Part shown: positions 22,275 to 38,010 of the stretch, one piece after another
How positions within the stretch are numbered: the stretch's first letter is position 1
Layout: each line of letters begins with the position of its first letter
The notes under the pieces: model-generated
The model's input: only the letters and a program-made list of their open reading frames with translations
What the model was told of the DNA's origin: nothing
Database searches by the model: none
Translations under genes and position numbers: made by a program
Origin: Mycobacterium sp.
GTDB lineage: Bacteria > Actinomycetota > Actinomycetes > Mycobacteriales > Mycobacteriaceae
NCBI GenBank assembly: GCA_020438845.1
Contig: JAGQTV010000052.1
Span: 28,395 to 92,394 of the forward strand
Length of the DNA stretch: 64,000 nucleotides
Direction: 5' to 3'

Positions 22275-24338
22275 GTGACAACGGCGACGTCGATCTACAT
22301 CGCCTCCCCGGAGGGGGAGACCGGTAAGTCCACCATCGCGCTGGGCCTCTTGCGCCGGCTGGCTGCATTGGTTCCGAGAGTCGGGGTTTTCAGGCCGATA
22401 ACCCGACGGGAGGACCGCGACTACATCCTCGACCTGCTGCTGTCGCAATGCGATTCGGGCCTGTCCTATGAGCAGTGCGCGGGAGTGAGCTACCAGCGAT
22501 TGCACCAAGACCCCGACGGTGCGATCACCGATATCGTCGACCGCTATCACGCGGTGGCCGACCTGTGCGATGCGATGGTGATAGTGGGTTCTGACTTCAC
22601 CGATGTCGCATCGCCGACTGAACTCGCTGTCAATGCGCGCATCGCCGCCAATCTTGGTGCGCCGGTGCTGCTGTCGGTGCGAGCCACCCGCCGCACGCCG
22701 GCGGAAATCGCCGACGTCATCGAACTGTCCCTGTGTGAGCTTGGTCACCAGCACACCCATACGGCCGCGGTGGTGGCCAACCGCTGTGAGCGGGACAAGA
22801 TGGCTGCCGTCCAAGCAGCATGTGCCGACCTGGGTCCACCGGTCTACGTGCTGCCCGAAGAGCCGCTACTCGTGGCGCCGACGGTGGCTGAATTGGCGGC
22901 AGCAATCGACGGCGTCCTGGTTCACGGCGATCCCTCGCTGATGTCCCGGGAGGTACAGGACATGATGGCGGCGGGGATGACAGCCGAGCATGTGCTGGAG
23001 CGGCTTACCGAAGGCGTTGCCGTCGTCACGCCGGGGGACCGTTCCGATGTTGTCATGGCGGTCGCTGGAGCTCATGCCGCCAAGGGTTTTCCCTCGTTAT
23101 CGGCGATCATCCTCAACGGAGGTCTGCCGCTGCACCGCGAGGTTGCCCGCCTGGTGACCGGCATCGGACTGCGGTTGCCGATCGTCGCCACCGAATTGCG
23201 CACCTTCGAGACCGCCACCGCGATGGCCAACACCCATGGCCGGGTGACCGCAGCGTCGCGACGCAAGATCGACACCGCGATCGAACTGGTTCAGCGCTAC
23301 GTCGACGTGGACGATCTGATCGCCCAACTTGCGATTCCGATCCCGACTGTCACCACGCCGCAGATGTTCACCTACCAGTTGATGGAGCGCGCGCGGGCCG
23401 ACCGTCAGCGCATCGTGTTGCCGGAGGGCGATGATGACCGAATCCTGCAGGCCGCCGGTCGGCTGTTGCTGAGAGGAGTGGCCGACCTGACCATCCTGGG
23501 CGAGGAGTCTGCAGTTCGTACCAGGGCAGGTGAGTTGGGTGTCGACCTCGACGGAGCAACCATCATCAACCCGGAGACCAGCGAGTTGGTCGAGGAATTT
23601 GCCGTCCAGTACGCCCAACTGCGTAGGCACAAGGGAGTGACGCTCGAACACGCCCGTGAGATCGTCCAGGACGTTTCCTATTTCGGCACGATGTTGGTGC
23701 ACAACGACATTGTCGACGGCATGGTGTCCGGAGCGGCCCACACCACGGCCCATACCGTCCGACCGGCCTTCGAGATCATCAAAACCCAACCGGATTGCTG
23801 CACGGTGTCGAGCATCTTCTTGATGTGCCTCAGCGACCGGGTGCTGGCCTACGGCGACTGCGCGATCGTTCCGGACCCCACCGCCGAGGAACTCGCCGAT
23901 ATCGCGATCAGTTCGGCCCGCACCGCTGCACAGTTCGGAATCGACCCGCGGGTGGCGATGCTCTCGTATTCCACGGGTGACTCTGGAAGCGGTGCAGGGG
24001 TCGACAAGGTAAGGACTGCAACCGAACTCGTACGACAACGCGAACCCGACCTGCTGGTCGAGGGTCCGATCCAGTACGACGCCGCGGTCGACCCGATCGT
24101 GGCGGAAGCGAAGATGCCCGGGTCGCTTGTCGCAGGCAAGGCGACCGTGCTCATCTTCCCGGACCTCAACACCGGCAACAACACCTACAAGGCGGTGCAA
24201 CGCAGTGCGGGGGCGGTGGCGATCGGCCCGGTGCTGCAAGGTTTGAACAAACCGGTGAACGATCTGTCTCGCGGCGCTCTGGTCGACGACATCGTCAATA
24301 CCGTTGCCATTACCGCGATCCAAGCTCAGGGGTCCTGA
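22275..24338 (+). CDS. pta: Phosphate acetyltransferase, long form
   Basis: 687 residues: an N-terminal BioD-like P-loop domain ([15 protein letters not shown]), a central DRTGG-type domain (about 200-330) and a C-terminal catalytic phosphotransacetylase domain (about 365-687) with [17 protein letters not shown] and [16 protein letters not shown]. It converts acetyl-CoA and phosphate to acetyl phosphate. The start is GTG 22275. The stop codon overlaps the ATG of ackA (TGATG), so the two are translationally coupled. Gene order fgd1-pta-ackA is as in M. tuberculosis. Confidence 0.95.
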
Positions 24339-25525
24339 TGCCTACGACGGTTTTGGTGCTCAACTCCGGATCCTCGTCGCTGAAATATCAACTGGTGCAG
24401 CCGGTAACCGGTGAATCGTTGTTCGACGGGATCGTCGAACGGATCGGCGAGGAAACGTCGCGGGCCAAGCTGAACATCGCCGGCGAGCGGATCGTTCGCG
24501 AGGGGCCGGTGCCGGATCACGAAGCCGCACTGCTGCTGGCCTTCGACCTGGTGGCCGAGACCGGGCGGAGCCTGGGCGGGCTGGGGTTGGTGGCGGTGGG
24601 CCACCGGGTCGTGCACGGTGGACCGAACCTGTACCGGCCGACGGTCGTGGACGACGCGTTGCTCGATGAGCTTCGGGAATTGGCGCCGTTGGCACCACTG
24701 CACAATCCGCCCGCGGTGCTGGGCATCGAGGTGGCCCGCAAACTGCTTCCTGATCTTCCGCACATCGCGGTCTTCGACACGGCGTTCTTCCACGACCTCC
24801 CTGCGGCGTCGTCCACCTATGCCATCGACCGGGATGTGGCCGCCCGGTGGAAGATACGGCGCTACGGATTCCACGGGACGTCACACGATTACGTCAGCCG
24901 CCGAGCCGCAGATTTCCTGGGTTCCCCGGTCACCTCGTTGAACCAAATCGTGCTGCACCTCGGTAATGGCGCCTCGGCGTCGGCGATCGCCGCCGGCCGG
25001 CCGGTGGACACCTCCATGGGCATGACGCCGATGGAGGGTCTGGTGATGGGCAGCCGGTCCGGAGACGTAGACCCGGGCATCATCAGCTATCTGTGGCGCG
25101 AGGCGGGGATGGGGGTCGATGAAATCGAGACCATGCTCAACCGGCGTTCCGGGATGCTGGGGTTGTCCGGCGACGTCGACCTGCGCGAGATCCAGCGGCG
25201 TATCGACTCCGGTGACGAGGTGGCTTTGCGGGCCTATCAGGTGTATATCCACCGCTTGCGCAAATACGTCGGTGCCTACTTGGCCGTGTTGGGGCATGTC
25301 GACGCCATCAGCTTCACAGCGGGCGTTGGCGAAAACCAGGCGGCGGTTCGCCGTGACGCGCTGAGCGGGCTGGGTCGTTTCGGTATCGAGATCGACGAAG
25401 ACCTCAACGCCAGCCCCTCACGGGAGCCGCGGCGCATTTCGACGGATAGATCGGCGACCGCTGTGCTGGTGATTCCGACCGACGAGGAGCTTGCCATCGC
25501 GCAGGCCTGCATGACGGTGGTGTAG
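24338..25525 (+). CDS. ackA: Acetate kinase
   Basis: 395 residues. Acetokinase signatures are [13 protein letters not shown] at the N-terminus, VGHRVVHGG, the catalytic-Asp region [23 protein letters not shown] and [10 protein letters not shown]. It makes ATP and acetate from acetyl phosphate or the reverse. The start ATG overlaps the pta stop. In M. tuberculosis the next gene is pknG on the other strand; here seven other genes (25621-33186) lie between. Confidence 0.95.
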
Positions 25526-25620: not shown

Positions 25621-26676
25621 ATGTGCACAGGAATTCGTCTGACGGCCGCCAACGGCGACGTCGTATATGCGCGGACGATGGAGTTCGATACCGAGCTGCC
25701 GGGGTTGATCGGTTACGTCCCCCGCGGGCAGGAGTTTTTCGGTGATACAAACTCCGGAGCCGACGGGATGAGGTGGACCAACAAGTACGGTTTCGGCGGC
25801 AACGTGGGAATCCTCGGCGGGAACCACTCGCTGGGTTCCGATGGGATAAACGAGAAGGGCCTCGTGGCAGGTGTTTTCAACCTCCCCGGGTTCACCGAGT
25901 TCTCACCGATTTCGGACACCAATCGGACGAAAGCGATCGCCAGTTGGCAGATGGTGCTCTATCTGCTCGGCAACTGCGAAACGACCGACGAAGCCGAGGA
26001 GGCTCTGCTGTCCGGCGAGGTCGTCGTCGTCGACACCGAATTCCCTTTCACGCCCACGACGAAAGGGCAGCTGCCGCTTCACCTGCGCGTCGGCGACTCC
26101 GGCGGTAGGACGATCGTCTGCGAATGGCACACTCCGAATCAGCCTCCGACGATCACCGAGTCACCAAGCGGCTGTGTCACGAATCCGCCGGGCTTCGATT
26201 TTCACCTGAACAACTGGGAGCACTACAAATCCCTCTCCCCGTACAACCCGTTCGGTCCGATCACGGCCGGCGGCTCTCAGACTTACAAGATCACCATGGG
26301 GAACGGCTATGTCGGCATGCCAGGCGGTAGCAACTCGCCGGACCGCTTCATCCGCGCCAGCCTTTACTCGCGTGATGCCTACGCAGCCGCGACCGGCGCC
26401 GATGCAGTCTGGACGGCCTGGCACATAATGAATAACTTCGACGTGCCGCGCGGAATTATGCGTAACGTCACCGACACCGGCATTGAGTCGACGGAATACA
26501 CGCTCTGGACCAGCGTCGCTGACACGAAGAACCTCAAGTACTACTTCCGCGTCTATGAGAACCCCGCTATCTACGAACTCGATCTCAAAGATCAGGACCC
26601 CTCCGGCACTACCGTGCTGATCGATGACAGGCCCACCACCGCGCCGATTGTCACTGTTCCAGTGCGGTTCACGTAA
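25621..26676 (+). CDS. Choloylglycine hydrolase family (linear amide C-N hydrolase)
   Basis: A 351-residue Ntn-hydrolase. Removal of Met1 would expose Cys2 (MCTGI) as the nucleophile, and Arg18 in YARTMEFD is the expected second catalytic residue. Further on are NEKGLVAGVFN and NSPDRF, the latter placing the later conserved arginine. The family includes bile salt hydrolases, penicillin V acylases and quorum-quenching acyl-homoserine lactone acylases. There is no signal peptide, so it should be cytosolic. GAGGAG sits shortly before the ATG. Codon use seems less GC-biased than in its neighbours (for example AATGAATAACTTC near 26430), which may mean acquisition. The substrate cannot be chosen from the sequence. 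Confidence 0.85.
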   Translation: MCTGIRLTAANGDVVYARTMEFDTELPGLIGYVPRGQEFFGDTNSGADGMRWTNKYGFGGNVGILGGNHSLGSDGINEKGLVAGVFNLPGFTEFSPISDTNRTKAIASWQMVLYLLGNCETTDEAEEALLSGEVVVVDTEFPFTPTTKGQLPLHLRVGDSGGRTIVCEWHTPNQPPTITESPSGCVTNPPGFDFHLNNWEHYKSLSPYNPFGPITAGGSQTYKITMGNGYVGMPGGSNSPDRFIRASLYSRDAYAAATGADAVWTAWHIMNNFDVPRGIMRNVTDTGIESTEYTLWTSVADTKNLKYYFRVYENPAIYELDLKDQDPSGTTVLIDDRPTTAPIVTVPVRFT

Positions 26677-26805: not shown

Positions 26806-27414
26806 CTAGACACACTCCAGTAGTGAGTCGCTGGGCTCACCGAGCGCGCCGACTGTAGCGTGGGCCGATATGCGGCCCTGGTGATCGGTTGTGGCGCATA
26901 CGATTCCGCACCTTCCGGCATCGACTCTCCCGGCGATCAAGGGTGAGTGCTCCAGCAACGACATCCCGACTGAGACGACGTGGGCCGAGCTGAGTTCCGC
27001 GGCGGTGGTGGCAGGTGTGGGCAGCCGCAGGATCGAGGACAGAGCCTGTTCGATGGTAAGCCTGCTGGCCCCGTTGGGGAGTTCCGCGTTCTGCCAGGCC
27101 CGTAACGCTGCGCGCATGGCCGTGCACTCTTGGTGGCCTAGTATGACGATCAGCGGAGTATTCAGGTTGTCGACGGCGTGCTCCAATGTTGCGAGCACCC
27201 CGGTGTCGACGACGTGGCCCCATGTGCTTACGTCGAGCAGTGCACCCTGGCTCTGGCCGAACACCATCTCGCTGGAGAGGTGGGTATCCGCACAGCGGAA
27301 TACTGCGGCTACCGGGGCGCCCTGGTGCACGGACTTATGCCGTGCCCGCTTCCGGATGGAGGGCACTTCGTTACCTGCGCGCAGTTGTTGCCAGATGCTC
27401 ATTGGGTTGGACAT
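26806..27414 (-). CDS. Beta-carbonic-anhydrase-like protein with an altered Asp-Arg dyad
   Basis: 202 residues with the beta-carbonic-anhydrase fold signature. Expected zinc ligands are present: Cys41 (FRCADTH), His94 and Cys97 (ILGHQECTAM); the ligand or switch Asp43 is also kept. The Arg that normally pairs with this Asp (CxDSR) is replaced by His45, and the usual HxxCG is HQECT. STWGHVVDTGVLATLEHA matches the TAGH-containing stretch of active enzymes. It follows the PII-like gene by 39 bp with AGAAAGG upstream of the ATG, as the last gene of the dab operon. It may hydrate CO2 poorly, sense bicarbonate, or work with DabA; which is not known. Confidence 0.8.
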   Translation of the reverse strand: MSNPMSIWQQLRAGNEVPSIRKRARHKSVHQGAPVAAVFRCADTHLSSEMVFGQSQGALLDVSTWGHVVDTGVLATLEHAVDNLNTPLIVILGHQECTAMRAALRAWQNAELPNGASRLTIEQALSSILRLPTPATTAAELSSAHVVSVGMSLLEHSPLIAGRVDAGRCGIVCATTDHQGRISAHATVGALGEPSDSLLECV

Positions 27415-27453
27415 GTCGGTGAACCTTTCTGTGATCAGTTGAACTATCGGTGA

Positions 27454-27789
27454 TTAGGAGAAGTAGTCGGGCCGGCTGACGTAGGTCTCGGTTGCGAACA
27501 TCACCCCCGACGATGCGTCCAGCAGGGGGCGCAGACCGGCGAGTAGGGCGTCCGCCTTGGCTTCGGGGATGACGGTGATGAGCAGTTCCAGGGTCGCCTG
27601 CTGGTTGAACAGCAGACGGCCTTGGTGGTAGCCGCGGTGGCCGAGTCCGGAGACACCAGACAAGCTGGTGAAGCCGGTCGCGCCGACGCTCTGGATGAGA
27701 TCACGTACTGCCGGTGCGTCGCTGCCGGCTACGACGACCTCGATCTTGATCATCTTCGTCAGCGCCTTGCTCATGGTCGGTGTGGTCAT
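27454..27789 (-). CDS. PII-like (GlnB-fold) small signalling protein
   Basis: 111 residues with the ferredoxin-like PII pattern: strand TKMIKIEVVVAG, helix AVRDLIQSVGATG, a glycine-rich T-loop region (SGVSGLGHRGYHQG), a strand LELLITVIPEAKADALLAGL and a C-terminal extension (FATETYVSRPDYFS). It lacks the classical PII uridylylation motif. It resembles the PII-like proteins encoded with bicarbonate transporters and DAB operons (SbtB/CPII type), which bind nucleotides or bicarbonate and adjust transport. Its ATG overlaps the dabA stop (ATGA) behind AAGGAG, so it should be made in a fixed ratio with DabA. Confidence 0.8.
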   Translation of the reverse strand: MTTPTMSKALTKMIKIEVVVAGSDAPAVRDLIQSVGATGFTSLSGVSGLGHRGYHQGRLLFNQQATLELLITVIPEAKADALLAGLRPLLDASSGVMFATETYVSRPDYFS

Positions 27790-30356
27790 CGAATCATCTC
27801 CTTCTGGTTGAGAATTGCCGTGCTGAAATCACTTGTGCGCCAGGCGCGCCAACCCGCCGGCGTCCATCGCTGCCACTGCTGACCCGCGTTCTCCCGCGCG
27901 GCCACAGTGAGCCATCCATTGCCGAAGAGTCGCTGCAGGATTGGGTTGCGCTCGACCACCGTGTCGATCCTGCCCAGGGGGGCCTGAATCACCGCGAGCA
28001 GTCGCATGGGTTCGTGCACCAGTCGCTCACTGGTGGCCACCGACTGCCAGGGCAGGCCGAGGCGGAGATCGCCTTCGTGTCCAGCGATCACGCCGGCGGT
28101 GCCGACGACGTTGTGGATCGTCTTGGTACCTGCTCCGAACACCTCCGGGGCCACAGTGGAGAAGTAGTACTGGCAGTTGATCCACTGGGCTACCACCAGT
28201 GGCGCGGTCAGGATGGTCTCCAGGGCGCTACCGTCCGGGTCGACCTCCGCGGAATATGAGTGCAGGAAGACGCGCCGTTGCAGGTTCTTGCCGCTGGAGA
28301 CCTCGCGTGGGGCGACCAGGAAGGCGGCGTTTCCGGCAAGGCCCCACTCGGGGTACACCTGGGCCCAGTCGGCCGACCTGCCTGCCACATGTCGGAAGGC
28401 GCTGGGGTCCGACATGTCGGCTGGGGCGCCGGGCAGCAAGGCGCTGCGTTCGGCCGCCAGCGCTGCACCGGCCCGGGCGAGGTCGGCTCGCAAGGTATCG
28501 ACCTGGGCCTGGTGTGAGGGAGGGACCAGGTGGGTGTCGAGCAGCGATACCCGATCGGTAGCGGTGTCATGCTGTGCAGCAAGGAAATACGTCTCCACCG
28601 GGATGTCGATGCCCAGTAGCCGCAACTCGGCCCGCACCTCCGGCTGGTTGAGGATTGTCGCGGCAGTACGCGCGTTGGGTCCGCCGGCCTGCCCGCCGCA
28701 GGCTCCGCAGTCCAGAGACGCCTGGTACGGGTTGTTCTCGGTGGTGCTCCCGTGCCCGGACAGGACCACCAGCCGGCCGAAGTCGCGCGTAAGCCCCATG
28801 GTGGTCAGCGCCACCTGGCCGAATAAGGCCCGCTGGTCCAGCGGCAGGTCACTCACGTTGAGTTCCGTCGGCGCAGCGGGCGCCGCGAGGTCGAGCAGCC
28901 GGCGCCGTAGGTTGCTGCTGGCCGCTGGGGCCAGAGTCTTCGCCGCCGCCAGCGGGGCGGCCACCCAACCCGCCGCCTCGGCGAGGCTGAAGGGCGCCGC
29001 CAGTGCGTCTTTAGCGGCGTGGAAGGCCGACTCAGCGCCGGCCAGGCCCCGGATACCGGCGATCCTGCGCTCTGCCGCAGCCTCGGCGTCGGGGACCGGT
29101 GTCTCGCGGATGTCGTGGCTGGGTTCGATCAGCACCGGGCACAGATCGCAGGGTTCGCCGCCAAGCAGGTCGGTGAACCGGATAGCGACCGCGAAGAATC
29201 CGGCGAAGCCGAACGTCTGATAGCCCGGGAGAGACTCAAGGTGGCGGCGCAGGCCCTCAGATCGGGTGTCGATGCAGGCGACAAGCTGGGTGTGCGGCCG
29301 GCCAGCAGGTGAGGCCTCAGCCGGTTCGGACAGCATGTCGAGTAGTCCGTCTCGGTAGTGGCCTTCGAAGGCGTTTTGCCACAGCATCTCTCGTGCCGTG
29401 ACCGGTAGGGCGGCGAGCACCCGGGCTGCAGCGGCCATGCCGGTCTCACTCACCTCGCCGACACCCCAGACCTGCGCCAGCTGCGCCGCGCGCTCGCGGG
29501 CCGACGGAATGCGCTCTGCTGGCCGTTCGGCCGCCCGGGAACCGGTGTGCCCGGCCAACAGTACGGCCTCGTAGCTCAGTCGCATCGCCAGATAATCGAT
29601 CAGGTCGATGCCGGTCTCCCGCTTGGCGCGCCACAGGATGTGGGCAGCCCAGCCGGGCAGGCGGGTGAGATGGGCCTGCAGGTATGCGGAGCGTGCGGCT
29701 TCGTCGACACCCAGATCCGAAAGTGCCTGTAAAACAGCGTCATCCGGGCGCTTGGCAATCCAGCGAAGCCGGACCCTGATCATGCGGGACAAGCTGGGAT
29801 CGGCATGAGCGAGTCCGCGCCAGGCGCTGTAGAAGCCCTTCTCGCGGCCCGGCATCGGCCAGGCGGCCCCCCCGAAGAAGGCCGCCAACCACTTGGCGGC
29901 TTGGGCGTCGATGATTCCAGCCACCTCGGGAGCGATCTGTTCGGCCTGGGTGAGGTAGCGGCGCTGCGGTTGCGGTCCTGCGGTTCCGTGCAGCAGGTCA
30001 CCACGCAGCAGCTCGGCCGGTGTGACTACCCGGTTGCCGAATTGGACGTCTTGCCCGGCCAGCAGGTTGGGGTACCGCTGTGCCAGCGCGCTGTCGAGGT
30101 CGGCGTCGGTGATGCGTCCCTGGCGGTAGAAGGTGCGGAATTCTTCGGCCGACAACGTCCCCCGGGTGCCATAGAGATCCGCGGCGCGGCGCACTGCCTG
30201 TTCGAAGGGCAGGGACTCAAACCCGGCCAGCGGGTTGACCGCGATGAAGGTCTCCAAGGGGTAGTGGGTGGGCAGCACTCGCGCTGCCAGTGCGATGTCG
30301 CTGCGGAGTTGCGAGCGTCGCTCGGCAACAGTGATTTCCGGGTGGGCGTTCGTCAT
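27786..30356 (-). CDS. dabA: DabA, inorganic carbon transporter zinc subunit (DUF2309/UPF0753)
   Basis: 856 residues from ATG 30356. The zinc site known from Halothiobacillus DabA (Cys, Asp, His, Cys) is present with the same spacing: Cys361 and Asp363 in LVACIDTRSE, His535 and Cys550 in LSGHGSTTEN and SLDCGACGG. Arg365 is also kept. DabA has a beta-carbonic-anhydrase-like active site and works with the membrane subunit DabB in energy-coupled accumulation of bicarbonate; Staphylococcus MpsAB is related. Start: the ATG at 30356 overlaps the dabB stop (ATGA) and lies 7 nt after AGGAG. An in-frame ATG at 30362 is too close to this SD, and the open frame to 30725 is a shadow of dabB. Confidence 0.93.
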   Translation of the reverse strand: MTNAHPEITVAERRSQLRSDIALAARVLPTHYPLETFIAVNPLAGFESLPFEQAVRRAADLYGTRGTLSAEEFRTFYRQGRITDADLDSALAQRYPNLLAGQDVQFGNRVVTPAELLRGDLLHGTAGPQPQRRYLTQAEQIAPEVAGIIDAQAAKWLAAFFGGAAWPMPGREKGFYSAWRGLAHADPSLSRMIRVRLRWIAKRPDDAVLQALSDLGVDEAARSAYLQAHLTRLPGWAAHILWRAKRETGIDLIDYLAMRLSYEAVLLAGHTGSRAAERPAERIPSARERAAQLAQVWGVGEVSETGMAAAARVLAALPVTAREMLWQNAFEGHYRDGLLDMLSEPAEASPAGRPHTQLVACIDTRSEGLRRHLESLPGYQTFGFAGFFAVAIRFTDLLGGEPCDLCPVLIEPSHDIRETPVPDAEAAAERRIAGIRGLAGAESAFHAAKDALAAPFSLAEAAGWVAAPLAAAKTLAPAASSNLRRRLLDLAAPAAPTELNVSDLPLDQRALFGQVALTTMGLTRDFGRLVVLSGHGSTTENNPYQASLDCGACGGQAGGPNARTAATILNQPEVRAELRLLGIDIPVETYFLAAQHDTATDRVSLLDTHLVPPSHQAQVDTLRADLARAGAALAAERSALLPGAPADMSDPSAFRHVAGRSADWAQVYPEWGLAGNAAFLVAPREVSSGKNLQRRVFLHSYSAEVDPDGSALETILTAPLVVAQWINCQYYFSTVAPEVFGAGTKTIHNVVGTAGVIAGHEGDLRLGLPWQSVATSERLVHEPMRLLAVIQAPLGRIDTVVERNPILQRLFGNGWLTVAARENAGQQWQRWTPAGWRAWRTSDFSTAILNQKEMIR

Positions 30357-31912
30357 GACCATGCTCCTGTCAGGTGGGTGGGAAGTGCTTGTGCGGGGGG
30401 CGTGATGTGGCCGGCGCTCAGGGCGCGGGCGTAGAGGGCTTTCTGGAACCTGGCGGCACTCGGTGCCCGTAGCGCGGCGGCTAGGCCACCCAGGATCGCC
30501 AGCGCGGTGCCGGTGATGAGCCACGTCGTGGTGGTCGGCAATGCGACCGCAGGCAAGTCGGGGGTGAGGAATCCGGTGACAGTGGAGACCAGCCAGACGT
30601 AGCCGATTCCGGCCGGCAGCAGGAAGGCGGCTGCCGTCGCGACCCCGCGAGCTCCAGGCTGGCGGGCCAGCCAGCCCGTGGTTGCGGCGGCTCCGGTCAC
30701 CCAGGCGAAGATCAATAACGCCCATTCGGCGGTGTGGTCACCGGGCTTCATCGGCACCAGGACGAGACCGAGGATGATCGAAGCTGCCGGCAGCACAAGG
30801 GCGGGAATCGCAAACCGGCGCGGTCGCTCCGTATGCGGCAGTGCCCTCATCCGGCGCCGGTGGGCGATCGCCGACCCCGAGGACAGGAACAGGGTGGCCT
30901 TGTAGAAGCCGTGCGCGAACAGGTGGAACACCGCTGCTGCCCACAGTCCCAGGCCGCAGGTGAGGATCATGAAGCCCATCTGAGCCATGGTCGAATGCGC
31001 CAGCGCCCCTTTGATGTCGGGCTTTACCAGCATGATGACGGCGCCGTAGGCCAGTGTGGCGATGCCGGCGACGACGATGAGCGCCTGGGCCACACCCGCC
31101 GCGGTCACGACGGGGCTGAGCTTGATGAGCAGGATGGCTCCGGCGTTGACTACGCCGGCATGAAGCAGTGCTGACACCGGAGTCGGTGCGGCCAGCGTGG
31201 CGGGCAGCCAGCGGTGAAATGGCATCTGGGCCGAACGGGACAGGGCGGCCGCGACCACCAGACAGGCGGCCAGGGCGACAAGCGGTCCGTCCAGCGGTTC
31301 GCCCTGGAGGGCGCGTAGGTCGACGGTGCCCTGACGGACCGCGATCAACCCGAACGCCGACCACAACGCCAGGTCGCCGATCAGGAACGCCTTGGCGGTC
31401 CTACGCACGCCGTCACGCGCCGACGGCAGCTGCCGATAGGTGCCCAGCAGTAGGCACAGAGCCACACCGGCTGCCGTCCAGCCCACAGCCAGAACAACGA
31501 GCGTCTGTGCTGTCATCAGCGTGGCCGAGGCGCTGGTGAGCAAACCGGCACCCGCGCTGAACCATCCGGCCCGGCTGTCTTCGGCGAGATAGCGGATGGC
31601 GAAGCTCTGCACGATCGCGCTGACGCCGTAGACCAGCACGAGCAGCACTGCCGCGAGGCGGTCAGCCGAGACGGCAACGACCGGCTGTTGTCCGATGTTC
31701 ACCGACATTGCTGCCAGGTGACCTCCGGCTGAACTGATCAGCAGGACCACTGCGCCGAGGAAGCCCAACGCGGCCGTACCTGCACCGAGTCGGCCGACGA
31801 GCCGATGCCGGCCTATGGCAGCTGCTGCCACCGTCGCTGCCAATGGCCCGATCAGCAAGGCCATCAAAATTCCATTCAGGACCGGACTTTCGGTCGCCGT
31901 AGTAGTCAACAT
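30353..31912 (-). CDS. dabB: DabB, NuoL-like proton-conducting membrane subunit
   Basis: 519 residues with about 13-14 hydrophobic helices, related to the antiporter-like NuoL/MrpA subunits. The core motif is seen as SRSAQMPFHRWLPATLAAP followed by TPVSALLHAGVVNAG, and a second as DIKGALAHSTMAQMG, including the Lys and His residues of the proton path. In DAB systems this subunit couples cation flux to DabA. The ATG at 31912 has no Shine-Dalgarno, but a promoter whose predicted start point is at or next to this ATG fits a leaderless mRNA. It is the first gene of the dabB-dabA-PII-CA operon. Confidence 0.92.
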   Translation of the reverse strand: MLTTTATESPVLNGILMALLIGPLAATVAAAAIGRHRLVGRLGAGTAALGFLGAVVLLISSAGGHLAAMSVNIGQQPVVAVSADRLAAVLLVLVYGVSAIVQSFAIRYLAEDSRAGWFSAGAGLLTSASATLMTAQTLVVLAVGWTAAGVALCLLLGTYRQLPSARDGVRRTAKAFLIGDLALWSAFGLIAVRQGTVDLRALQGEPLDGPLVALAACLVVAAALSRSAQMPFHRWLPATLAAPTPVSALLHAGVVNAGAILLIKLSPVVTAAGVAQALIVVAGIATLAYGAVIMLVKPDIKGALAHSTMAQMGFMILTCGLGLWAAAVFHLFAHGFYKATLFLSSGSAIAHRRRMRALPHTERPRRFAIPALVLPAASIILGLVLVPMKPGDHTAEWALLIFAWVTGAAATTGWLARQPGARGVATAAAFLLPAGIGYVWLVSTVTGFLTPDLPAVALPTTTTWLITGTALAILGGLAAALRAPSAARFQKALYARALSAGHITPPAQALPTHLTGAWS

Positions 31913-31919
31913 GAGATGG

Positions 31920-31949
31920 ACAATACATGTTATAAAATTCCGGTGTCAA
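31920..31949 (-). promoter_or_regulatory. Predicted SigA-type promoter of the dab operon
   Basis: On the minus strand a perfect -35 TTGACA (31949-31944) and a -10 TATTGT (31925-31920) are separated by 18 bp. The -10 ends 7 nt before the dabB ATG, which predicts a leaderless transcript and explains the missing Shine-Dalgarno. This short intergenic region is clearly more AT-rich than its surroundings. Confidence 0.6.
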
Positions 31950-31969
31950 TAGTCCGGATTAGAAAATCC
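31939..31969. promoter_or_regulatory. Candidate operator palindromes over the dab -35 region
   Basis: Two inverted repeats lie side by side: TCCGG-N10-CCGGA (31939-31958), which brackets the -35 box, and GGATT-AGAA-AATCC (31956-31969). They lie between dabB and the divergent winged-helix regulator gene and are natural candidates for its binding site. Both are seen directly; the link to this regulator is inference. Confidence 0.4.
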
Positions 31970-32048
31970 TATGAATGTTGGACAGGTGTCGTCGGCGTAA
32001 CTGCGATGCATGTTTCGTGTCATGGCAGTGCAGATCTACACTTCGGTA

Positions 32049-32345
32049 ATGCCCGAGTGGACGTTCCTGACCAACCACGCCCACACGTTGCTGTGCATTG
32101 CCCGGGATCCGGGTATTCGGCTGCGCGATGTGGCCGAGCGGGTAGGTGTAACCGAACGTGCTGCCCAGCGCATCGTCAGCGACCTAGTCGAGGCCGGCTA
32201 CCTGGACCGCCTTCGAGACGGCCGGCGCAACCACTACCAGGTCCGGGCCGACCGCCCGATGCGCCATCCAGTGGAGCGCGGCCACGACGTCGGCGAAATC
32301 CTGGCGGTGCTCCATGAACCAGAGAGTTCGCCAACCCCGGGGTAA
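32049..32345 (+). CDS. Winged-helix DNA-binding regulator, divergent to the dab operon
   Basis: 98 residues from ATG 32049 (MPEWTFLTNHAH); in-frame ATGs at 32010 and 32022 would add 13 or 9 residues, and no Shine-Dalgarno decides. The domain WTFLTNHAHTLLCIARDPGI leads into the helix-turn-helix RLRDVAERVGVTERAAQRIVSDL (quoted in part) and a wing GYLDRLRDGRRNHYQV, followed by RHPVERGHDVGEIL. This is a MarR/ArsR-like single winged helix with no obvious ligand domain. The gene overlaps the DUF6671 gene by 32 bp. It is the likely local regulator of the dab operon. Confidence 0.75.
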   Translation: MPEWTFLTNHAHTLLCIARDPGIRLRDVAERVGVTERAAQRIVSDLVEAGYLDRLRDGRRNHYQVRADRPMRHPVERGHDVGEILAVLHEPESSPTPG

Positions 32346-33186
32346 GTCAATCGACTACCGCGGCAGCCTGATCGCGGTGGGAACCCGCCACGGAAAGCAA
32401 TTGCAGTTCGCGCCGGCCTTCGCCGCCGTCCTCGGTGCTCGCGTGATCGCACCACCGGATCTCGATACCGATAAGTTCGGCACCTTCCCTGGCGAGGTTC
32501 CACGAACCATGAGCGCCCTGGACACCGCGCGCGCCAAAGCGCTGTTGGCCGTCCAGGCCAGTGGTTCGCGATATGCGCTGGCAAGCGAGGCCAGCTACGG
32601 ACCGCTTCCCGGGACCGGGATCCCGGGTCACGAAGAACTACTGGTCTTCATCGACCACGCCCGCGGGATCGAACTGGTGGAGGGCTATCGGACCACCGCG
32701 ATCCCTGGATTCGGCCAGCGCATCCGAGACTTCAGTGACTTGAAACCGGGCATCGTGGGCGCCTTGCCCGACCAAGCCCTGATCGTGCGGCCCTCCGTCG
32801 ATAGCCGCCCGGGAGACATCGTCAAGGGCATCACTACGACCGAACGACTCCAAGGTGCCGTCATCAGTGCCGCTGGGCGGTCATCAGATGGTCTGGCCCT
32901 CGTTGAGCCGGACCTTCGCGCGCATCACAATCCGACCCGCCGTCAGGTCCTGGCCAGGCTGGCCGAAACCATGGCGCACCGACTCGCCACCCGCTGCCCC
33001 GGGTGCAGTGCGCCCGGATTCGGCCGAGTAGACACTGAACCCGGTCTGCCCTGCCGTGCGTGCGCAACGCCGACACCGCTGAGCCGCCACCAGATCCACA
33101 GCTGCTCAGTCTGCACGCATGACGAGATCCACCCAGTCGCCGAACCGGCTGCTGATCCCCGCTGGTGCCCTGAATGCAACCCCTGA
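32314..33186 (+). CDS. DUF6671 family protein with C-terminal zinc-ribbon
   Basis: 290 residues. The N-terminal domain (about 14-230) carries the pattern YRGSLIAVGTRHGKQLQFAP, DTDKFGTFPGEVPR, ALASEASYGP and EELLVFIDHARGIELVEGY, which I recognise as DUF6671; its activity is unknown. The C-terminal 60 residues hold four Cys pairs (CPGC, CRAC, CSVC, CPEC) as expected for a zinc ribbon. The ATG at 32314 is the only practical start because the conserved domain begins right after it. It lies inside the regulator gene in another frame, so the two are coupled. Association with the dab operon is seen only by position. Confidence 0.75.
   Translation: MNQRVRQPRGKSIDYRGSLIAVGTRHGKQLQFAPAFAAVLGARVIAPPDLDTDKFGTFPGEVPRTMSALDTARAKALLAVQASGSRYALASEASYGPLPGTGIPGHEELLVFIDHARGIELVEGYRTTAIPGFGQRIRDFSDLKPGIVGALPDQALIVRPSVDSRPGDIVKGITTTERLQGAVISAAGRSSDGLALVEPDLRAHHNPTRRQVLARLAETMAHRLATRCPGCSAPGFGRVDTEPGLPCRACATPTPLSRHQIHSCSVCTHDEIHPVAEPAADPRWCPECNP

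Positions 33187-33269: not shown

Positions 33270-38010
<4,741 letters not shown>

Follow-up and report, generated by a model that had tools for sequence, protein, structure and literature searches.

The 64,000-nucleotide stretch analyzed here (the window), from contig JAGQTV010000052.1 of a Mycobacterium sp. assembly (GCA_020438845.1), carries a four-gene operon that, to judge by its sequence, is a set of genes for a DAB/DAC-type inorganic carbon accumulation complex, a known kind of CO2-to-bicarbonate pump. The novelty of the locus lies in the fourth gene, a probable pseudo-carbonic-anhydrase added in mycobacteria. The operon runs along the minus strand from position 31912 to 26806 in the order dabB, dabA, a PII-like gene, and a carbonic anhydrase (CA)-like gene, called dab-CA here. 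dabB (30353..31912) encodes a 519-amino-acid (aa) membrane subunit of the NDH/Mrp type (Proton_antipo_M, PF00361; 136 bits, 2e-39). dabA (27786..30356) encodes an 856-aa zinc beta-CA-like cytoplasmic subunit that covers positions 2-747 of the 747 in the PF10070 profile, with a score of 806.7 bits where the Pfam cut-off is 25 bits. The PII-like gene (27454..27789) encodes 111 aa (P-II, PF00543; 57.3 bits, 2.2e-15), and dab-CA (26806..27414) encodes a degenerate beta-CA of 202 aa (Pro_CA, 65.7 bits). The remaining genes of the operon and the divergent genes described below also exceed their cut-offs. A first-pass annotation of this DNA had proposed a complete DAB-type operon on one strand, and its genes and coordinates are confirmed. 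The junctions are likewise as claimed. dabA adjoins the proton-antiporter-family gene dabB with a 4-bp ATGA overlap (30353-30356), a second ATGA joins dabA to the PII gene (27786-27789), and 39 bp (27415-27453) separate the PII gene from dab-CA.

The zinc site of DabA is intact. Cys361, Asp363, His535, and Cys550, on which the annotation had relied, are present in the 856-aa numbering, as is Arg365, which it had not listed. A phmmer search matched the window DabA to the solved DabA2 (9rd0) with an E value of 1.3e-106, no other PDB sequence reaching the E 0.001 threshold, and in the alignment to 9rd0 all five catalytic residues of DabA2 are found. According to the available passages of the cryo-electron microscopy study of DAB2, the zinc ligands are Cys351, His524, and Cys539, the dyad is Asp353-Arg355, and alanine substitutions at these residues impaired growth when CO2 was limiting (PMC13144422). 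The window system shares with DAB2 of Halothiobacillus neapolitanus (DabA2-DabB2) the PF10070 and Proton_antipo_M pair and the Cys, Asp, Arg, His, Cys zinc site. It differs in that its genome has no RuBisCO match and adds genes for PII, a degenerate CA, a winged-helix regulator, and a DUF6671 protein. In a FastTree phylogeny of 115 DabA rows, which include no experimentally studied DabA, so that kinship to DabA2 rests on the phmmer match, mycobacterial and Rhodococcus DabA form one group of 80 rows (local support, 100), and the window protein falls within a group of six mycobacteria. Some actinobacterial PF10070 matches (L073-L078 and L080) span ~3.6-3.8 kb versus 2.4 kb, with open frames of ~1300-1390 aa that represent DabA with a large insert.

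The best solved match of the PII-like protein is 5d4n (P-II/GlnB; phmmer, 63.4 bits, 1.7e-16), which we take to be CPII of Thiomonas intermedia. A 2016 report by Wheatley is said, by its title, to describe CPII as carboxysome-associated and bicarbonate-regulated, whereas the window genome has no RuBisCO match. By analogy with CPII and SbtB, it is probable that the operon's PII senses adenine nucleotides along with bicarbonate and acts as the gate of the pump.

The fourth gene, dab-CA

The annotation had called the fourth gene beta-CA-like. Family and fold stand, since the product matches Pro_CA and has a beta-CA fold, but the protein is degenerate, with its catalytic Arg replaced by His. This had been overlooked, and it changes how the gene is to be read. 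The residues at issue in the window are C41, D43, H45, H94, and C97, with CADTH in place of CxDSR. The Cys-His-Cys zinc site (C41, H94, and C97) is kept, and all three ligands are found in 66 of 70 dab-CAs, these being unique sequences, some of them nearly identical. The catalytic Asp-Arg dyad is not: D43 is there but residue 45 is His, and Arg is absent from 65 of the 70 and present in 5. Three sequences, from two M. gordonae records and the metagenome-assembled genome (MAG) AWTP1-6, have lost both zinc cysteines (S41 and S97). Among the 70, 37 columns are conserved at a level of at least 95%, and near-invariant residues that are new in dab-CA (R40, S63, W65, W107, A144, and C173) replace the canonical ones. 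This comparison used 21 of 26 canonical CA rows (L187, L172, L173, L175, and L177 were left out), which were drawn from the best matches other than dab-CA and so lean toward near kin. The closest solved relative is the CanB-type mycobacterial beta-CA Rv3588c (1ym3 and 2a5v), from which dab-CA differs in the replaced Arg, in the new residues just listed, and, in the genus sample, in being tied to DAB. COS (carbonyl sulfide) hydrolase was ruled out as its nearest fold.

Is the gene merely a passenger? In 17 hand-picked close pairs, the ratio of nonsynonymous to synonymous substitution rates (dN/dS) of dab-CA is 0.08-0.28, near the dabA value, with 0.08 and 0.16 in the cysteine-less pairs; the PII gene gives 0-0.10. 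Searching 297 genomes of the genus with the window protein, with at most 10 candidates scored per genome, yielded matches of at least 175.8 bits in 64 genomes, the next CAs reaching no more than 116.6 bits. dab-CA lies beside DAB in 64 of the 67 DAB-positive genomes of the genus and in none of the 230 DAB-negative ones. In the three DAB-positive genomes without it, the contig ends (G139 and G212) or dabA is broken (G074). In an IQ-TREE phylogeny of 66 rows, midpoint-rooted and with a program warning of long branches, all 40 dab-CAs form one group (support, 100/100), whose stem is 1.6 changes per site long. dab-CA is a single beta-CA clade, bound to the DAB operon in mycobacteria and kept by selection.

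The stand-alone search covered the genus; outside it, dab-CA was looked for inside DAB loci, so that copies without DAB could escape. Among the phylum and named loci, dab-CA was found in Mycobacterium or Mycolicibacterium records, in several MAGs with a higher actinobacterial label, and in a MAG labelled Acidobacteria (L160). The DAB of this last MAG is of the mycobacterial type, and it is probably mis-binned, or else a case of transfer. dab-CA is absent from the DAB loci of Rhodococcus, Nocardia, Amorphoplanes, Dactylosporangium, and Microbacterium and from those of Spirochaetaceae and Solirubrobacterales MAGs. A CA was sought after the PII gene in Rhodococcus (L135) and Amorphoplanes (L152) and none was found, the next long frames being convergent and, by eye, unrelated. 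In Microcella and its kin, the opposite strand after PII carries a CxDSR CA instead. The two Rhodococcus rows of the DabA tree have as their neighbor a mycobacterial group that looks slow-grower-like (support, 94), which points to a possible transfer of the operon between genera or else to loss of the fourth gene in Rhodococcus.

Two variants of the arrangement were seen. One locus (L070; G026:C1:5130912-5132355) has a tandem pair of dab-CAs, one with C41 and C97 and the other with S97 and CADDR, a possible division of labor. In the Kiruna MAG (L131/L210, on the same contig as in G139) and in G074 (L211), a canonical-looking CA of 35% identity is divergent to dabB; the L131 CA shows a CSDSR motif, and in G074, with its broken dabA, neither PII nor dab-CA was found.

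Distribution of the operon and its genomic site

Beyond the 67 of 297 sampled same-genus genomes, DabA was found in 23 of 396 phylum genomes. Named carriers include M. gordonae, M. szulgai, M. bohemicum, M. simiae, M. innocens, M. persicum, and M. attenuatum, as well as Mycolicibacterium chubuense, M. neoaurum, M. iranicum, and M. vanbaalenii, and there are DAB loci in Rhodococcus, Nocardia, Amorphoplanes, and Dactylosporangium. These genomes and named species rule out an operon that is unique or, in the annotation's term, lineage-specific; only the site is peculiar here. Forty same-genus loci, each 11 to 20 kb long, were read. All 40 have dabB-dabA-PII, and in 39 the CA-like gene comes next, the fortieth ending at a contig edge. 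No PII match was found in archaeal, NC10, and several other actinobacterial DAB loci, some of which have short flanks only. A literature search returned no description of a mycobacterial DAB among the matches listed, most subscription journals lying outside its scope, and the available passages of PMC13144422, PMC8552792, and PMC8567241 likewise contain none.

How did the operon come to lie where it does? It is flanked by ackA (24338-25525) and pknG (33270-36467), and the gap between them also holds the divergent regulator, the DUF6671 gene, and a gene the annotation did not mention, a choloylglycine hydrolase/penicillin V amidase-like gene (CBAH; 25621-26676, plus strand) recognized by its Pfam profile. 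ackA was sought in 18 same-genus genomes and was intact in 16, of which 13 were read (those left unread were G016, G022, and G072, each with an intact ackA, and G075 and G115, where the gene is decayed). In 13 of 13, ackA and pknG are convergent neighbors with no DAB between them, and 10 of these genomes have DAB elsewhere. The position in the window is therefore an insertion, as the annotation had proposed. Conversely, neither ackA nor pknG lies within reach (~8 kb a side or less) of DAB in any of the 40 same-genus loci. Between match edges, the gap in the 13 relatives varies from ~23 to 4310 bp, with three at or below 152 bp, and the site is a possible insertion hot spot.

Use of the bicarbonate and the role of dab-CA

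If the operon encodes a bicarbonate-generating pump, where would the bicarbonate go? The annotation had noted no RuBisCO in the window. The same is true of the whole genome (99.78% complete), in which the RuBisCO large subunit (PF00016) has no match, and autotrophy or a carboxysome is ruled out for it. Within the genus sample, RuBisCO occurs in 42 of 297 genomes, 10 of them among the 67 with DAB, as by chance (odds ratio, 1.09; Fisher p, 0.84). Because the two are independent, mycobacterial DAB is not tied to the Calvin cycle. By analogy with MpsAB of Staphylococcus, the likeliest use is the supply of bicarbonate to carboxylases, and in this the annotation's suggestion of a heterotrophic role is upheld. 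In the parts of the report available, MpsAB is a DAB homologue in a heterotroph that is needed at air CO2 and can complement an E. coli CA mutant (PMC6689103). Passages of the DAB2 study give MpsAB as a proposed sodium-bicarbonate symporter and put forward proton-driven CO2 hydration for DAB2 (PMC13144422). The intact zinc site of the window DabA favors CO2 hydration over symport. MpsAB of Staphylococcus aureus, likened here by description and not by sequence, thus shares the heterotrophic setting and differs in its proposed mode of action. We know of no PII or CA gene that partners with it.

The window genome has two further Pro_CA genes, so that replacement of CA by DAB is unsupported for it. 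One (L186) encodes a canB-like CA of the canonical type that shows no obvious signal. The other (L187; G000:C90:4201-4623) has, by eye, a lipoprotein-like N-terminal signal, and a CA so placed outside the cell could feed CO2 to the pump. Mycobacteria are described with three beta-CAs in the portion available of one paper (PMC6278287), and a passage of another speaks of "only CA homologs" for carbon supply in M. tuberculosis (PMC8552792). Human CA placed in the cytosol of the cyanobacterium Synechococcus led, according to a review, to massive CO2 leakage, and cytosolic CA is said in the same passages to put the bicarbonate pool at risk (PMC10880623). Were an active CA produced in the cytosol alongside the pump, the pumped bicarbonate would leak away, and a loss of activity in dab-CA fits this expectation.

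Overall, we consider it probable, with some reserve, that a DAB pump feeds heterotrophic carboxylases under the control of a CPII-like PII and a pseudo-carbonic-anhydrase. DabB would couple an ion gradient, probably of protons, to DabA, which would hydrate incoming CO2 one way and so fill the cytoplasm with bicarbonate. Going by homology, this would serve biotin-dependent and anaplerotic carboxylases. Control of the dabB promoter probably falls to the winged-helix protein, acting at sites that lie between -35 and -10, and PII, sensing its ligands, probably gates the pump. dab-CA would serve DabA or PII as a regulatory or structural partner. It is most likely non-enzymatic or a very weak CA, since most members have lost the dyad and a few the zinc cysteines, yet selection keeps the gene.

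Several observations weigh against this picture. The window dab-CA sits on a longer end branch than its sister (0.41 versus 0.037), a possible sign that selection is relaxed in this lineage. Cys, Asp, His, and Cys are kept together in 64 of the 70 dab-CAs, with Arg45 in 5, leaving room for weak catalysis. With the canonical L186 present, the operon alone does not avoid the leak. As to control by the winged-helix protein, a homologue (73-89% identity) is divergent to dabB in only 16 of the 40 same-genus loci, and the other 24 have no match or weaker ones elsewhere. Finally, low to moderate co-expression of a pump and CA can be tolerated, according to the available passages of the same review (PMC10880623).

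What, then, does dab-CA do? A more specific version of the favored reading, less likely than not, is that a duplicated CA became a pseudoenzyme and dedicated control subunit of the pump, which would sense CO2 or bicarbonate or silence the cell's own CA to prevent loss of the pumped bicarbonate, and would act with PII and a nucleotide-handling DUF6671 protein. It is rather doubtful that dab-CA is still an enzyme at work beside the pump, whether as a CA of low rate or as a hydrolase with the CA fold that acts on some other small molecule, for instance COS; the residues retained in most sequences would allow it, and the lost Arg speaks against it. Less likely again is a dominant-negative partner of CanB, in which mixed dimers would switch off cytosolic CA during pumping and prevent the loss of bicarbonate as CO2. 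The kinship to CanB-type Rv3588c, the canB-like L186 in the same genome, the fold and many invariant residues that dab-CA shares with canonical CAs, and the cost of cytosolic CA in Synechococcus (PMC10880623) would all suit it. However, seven near-invariant residues of dab-CA differ from canonical CAs, and a partnership with DabA is equally possible, as DabA itself has beta-CA-like domains in the structure as described in the passages available (PMC13144422). Decay of a functionless gene after its recruitment, which the lost catalytic residues and the long end branch of the window copy might suggest, is very improbable given the dabA-like dN/dS values, the 37 conserved columns, and the presence of dab-CA in every sampled DAB-positive genome with an uncut, unbroken locus.

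Why would a regulatory dab-CA matter? Mycobacterial CAs are proposed drug targets, and a second bicarbonate supply is predicted in 67 of the 297 sampled genomes of the genus. If dab-CA is a pseudoenzyme, nature would here have turned a CA into a pump regulator, and the system would offer a direct test of futile-cycle avoidance in a cell with both a pump and CA.

The divergent regulator and DUF6671

Two genes on the plus strand diverge from the operon, as the annotation had stated: one for a winged-helix (MarR-like) regulator of 107 aa (32022..32345; MarR_2, 32.2 bits; PF12802 and PF13412) and one for a DUF6671 protein of 290 aa (32314..33186; 103 bits against the DUF6671 profile). A candidate dabB promoter, TTGACA-18-TATTGT (31920..31949, minus strand), has 10 of 12 consensus matches and lies 7 nt upstream of the ATG, so close as to suggest a leaderless message. 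To place it among its relatives, 28 promoter regions were used that are divergent and unique and have a helix-turn-helix identity of at least 70%; two are from Rhodococcus. They were aligned on TTGACA, and shared ancestry accounts for part of their similarity. TTGACA is found in 26 of the 28, versus 0.77 expected from mononucleotide shuffles, and the other two have TTGACG. In those 26 regions a spacer motif, ACA-N-GTA, stands at a fixed distance with at most one departure per column. It is a candidate operator, and the winged-helix protein would be its obvious reader.

The predicted fold of DUF6671 may be ITPase/YjjX-like, at 13% identity. Compared with the nucleotide pyrophosphatases of the ITPase/HAM1/YjjX kind, it differs, besides this low identity, by an extra ATP-grasp-like piece and by C-terminal cysteine pairs (CxxC). 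A literature search found no paper on DUF6671, and the family gains here a predicted fold and an associated process. It is a recurrent companion of DAB, found with it also in Amorphoplanes, Nocardia, Microbacterium, and a Spirochaetaceae MAG.
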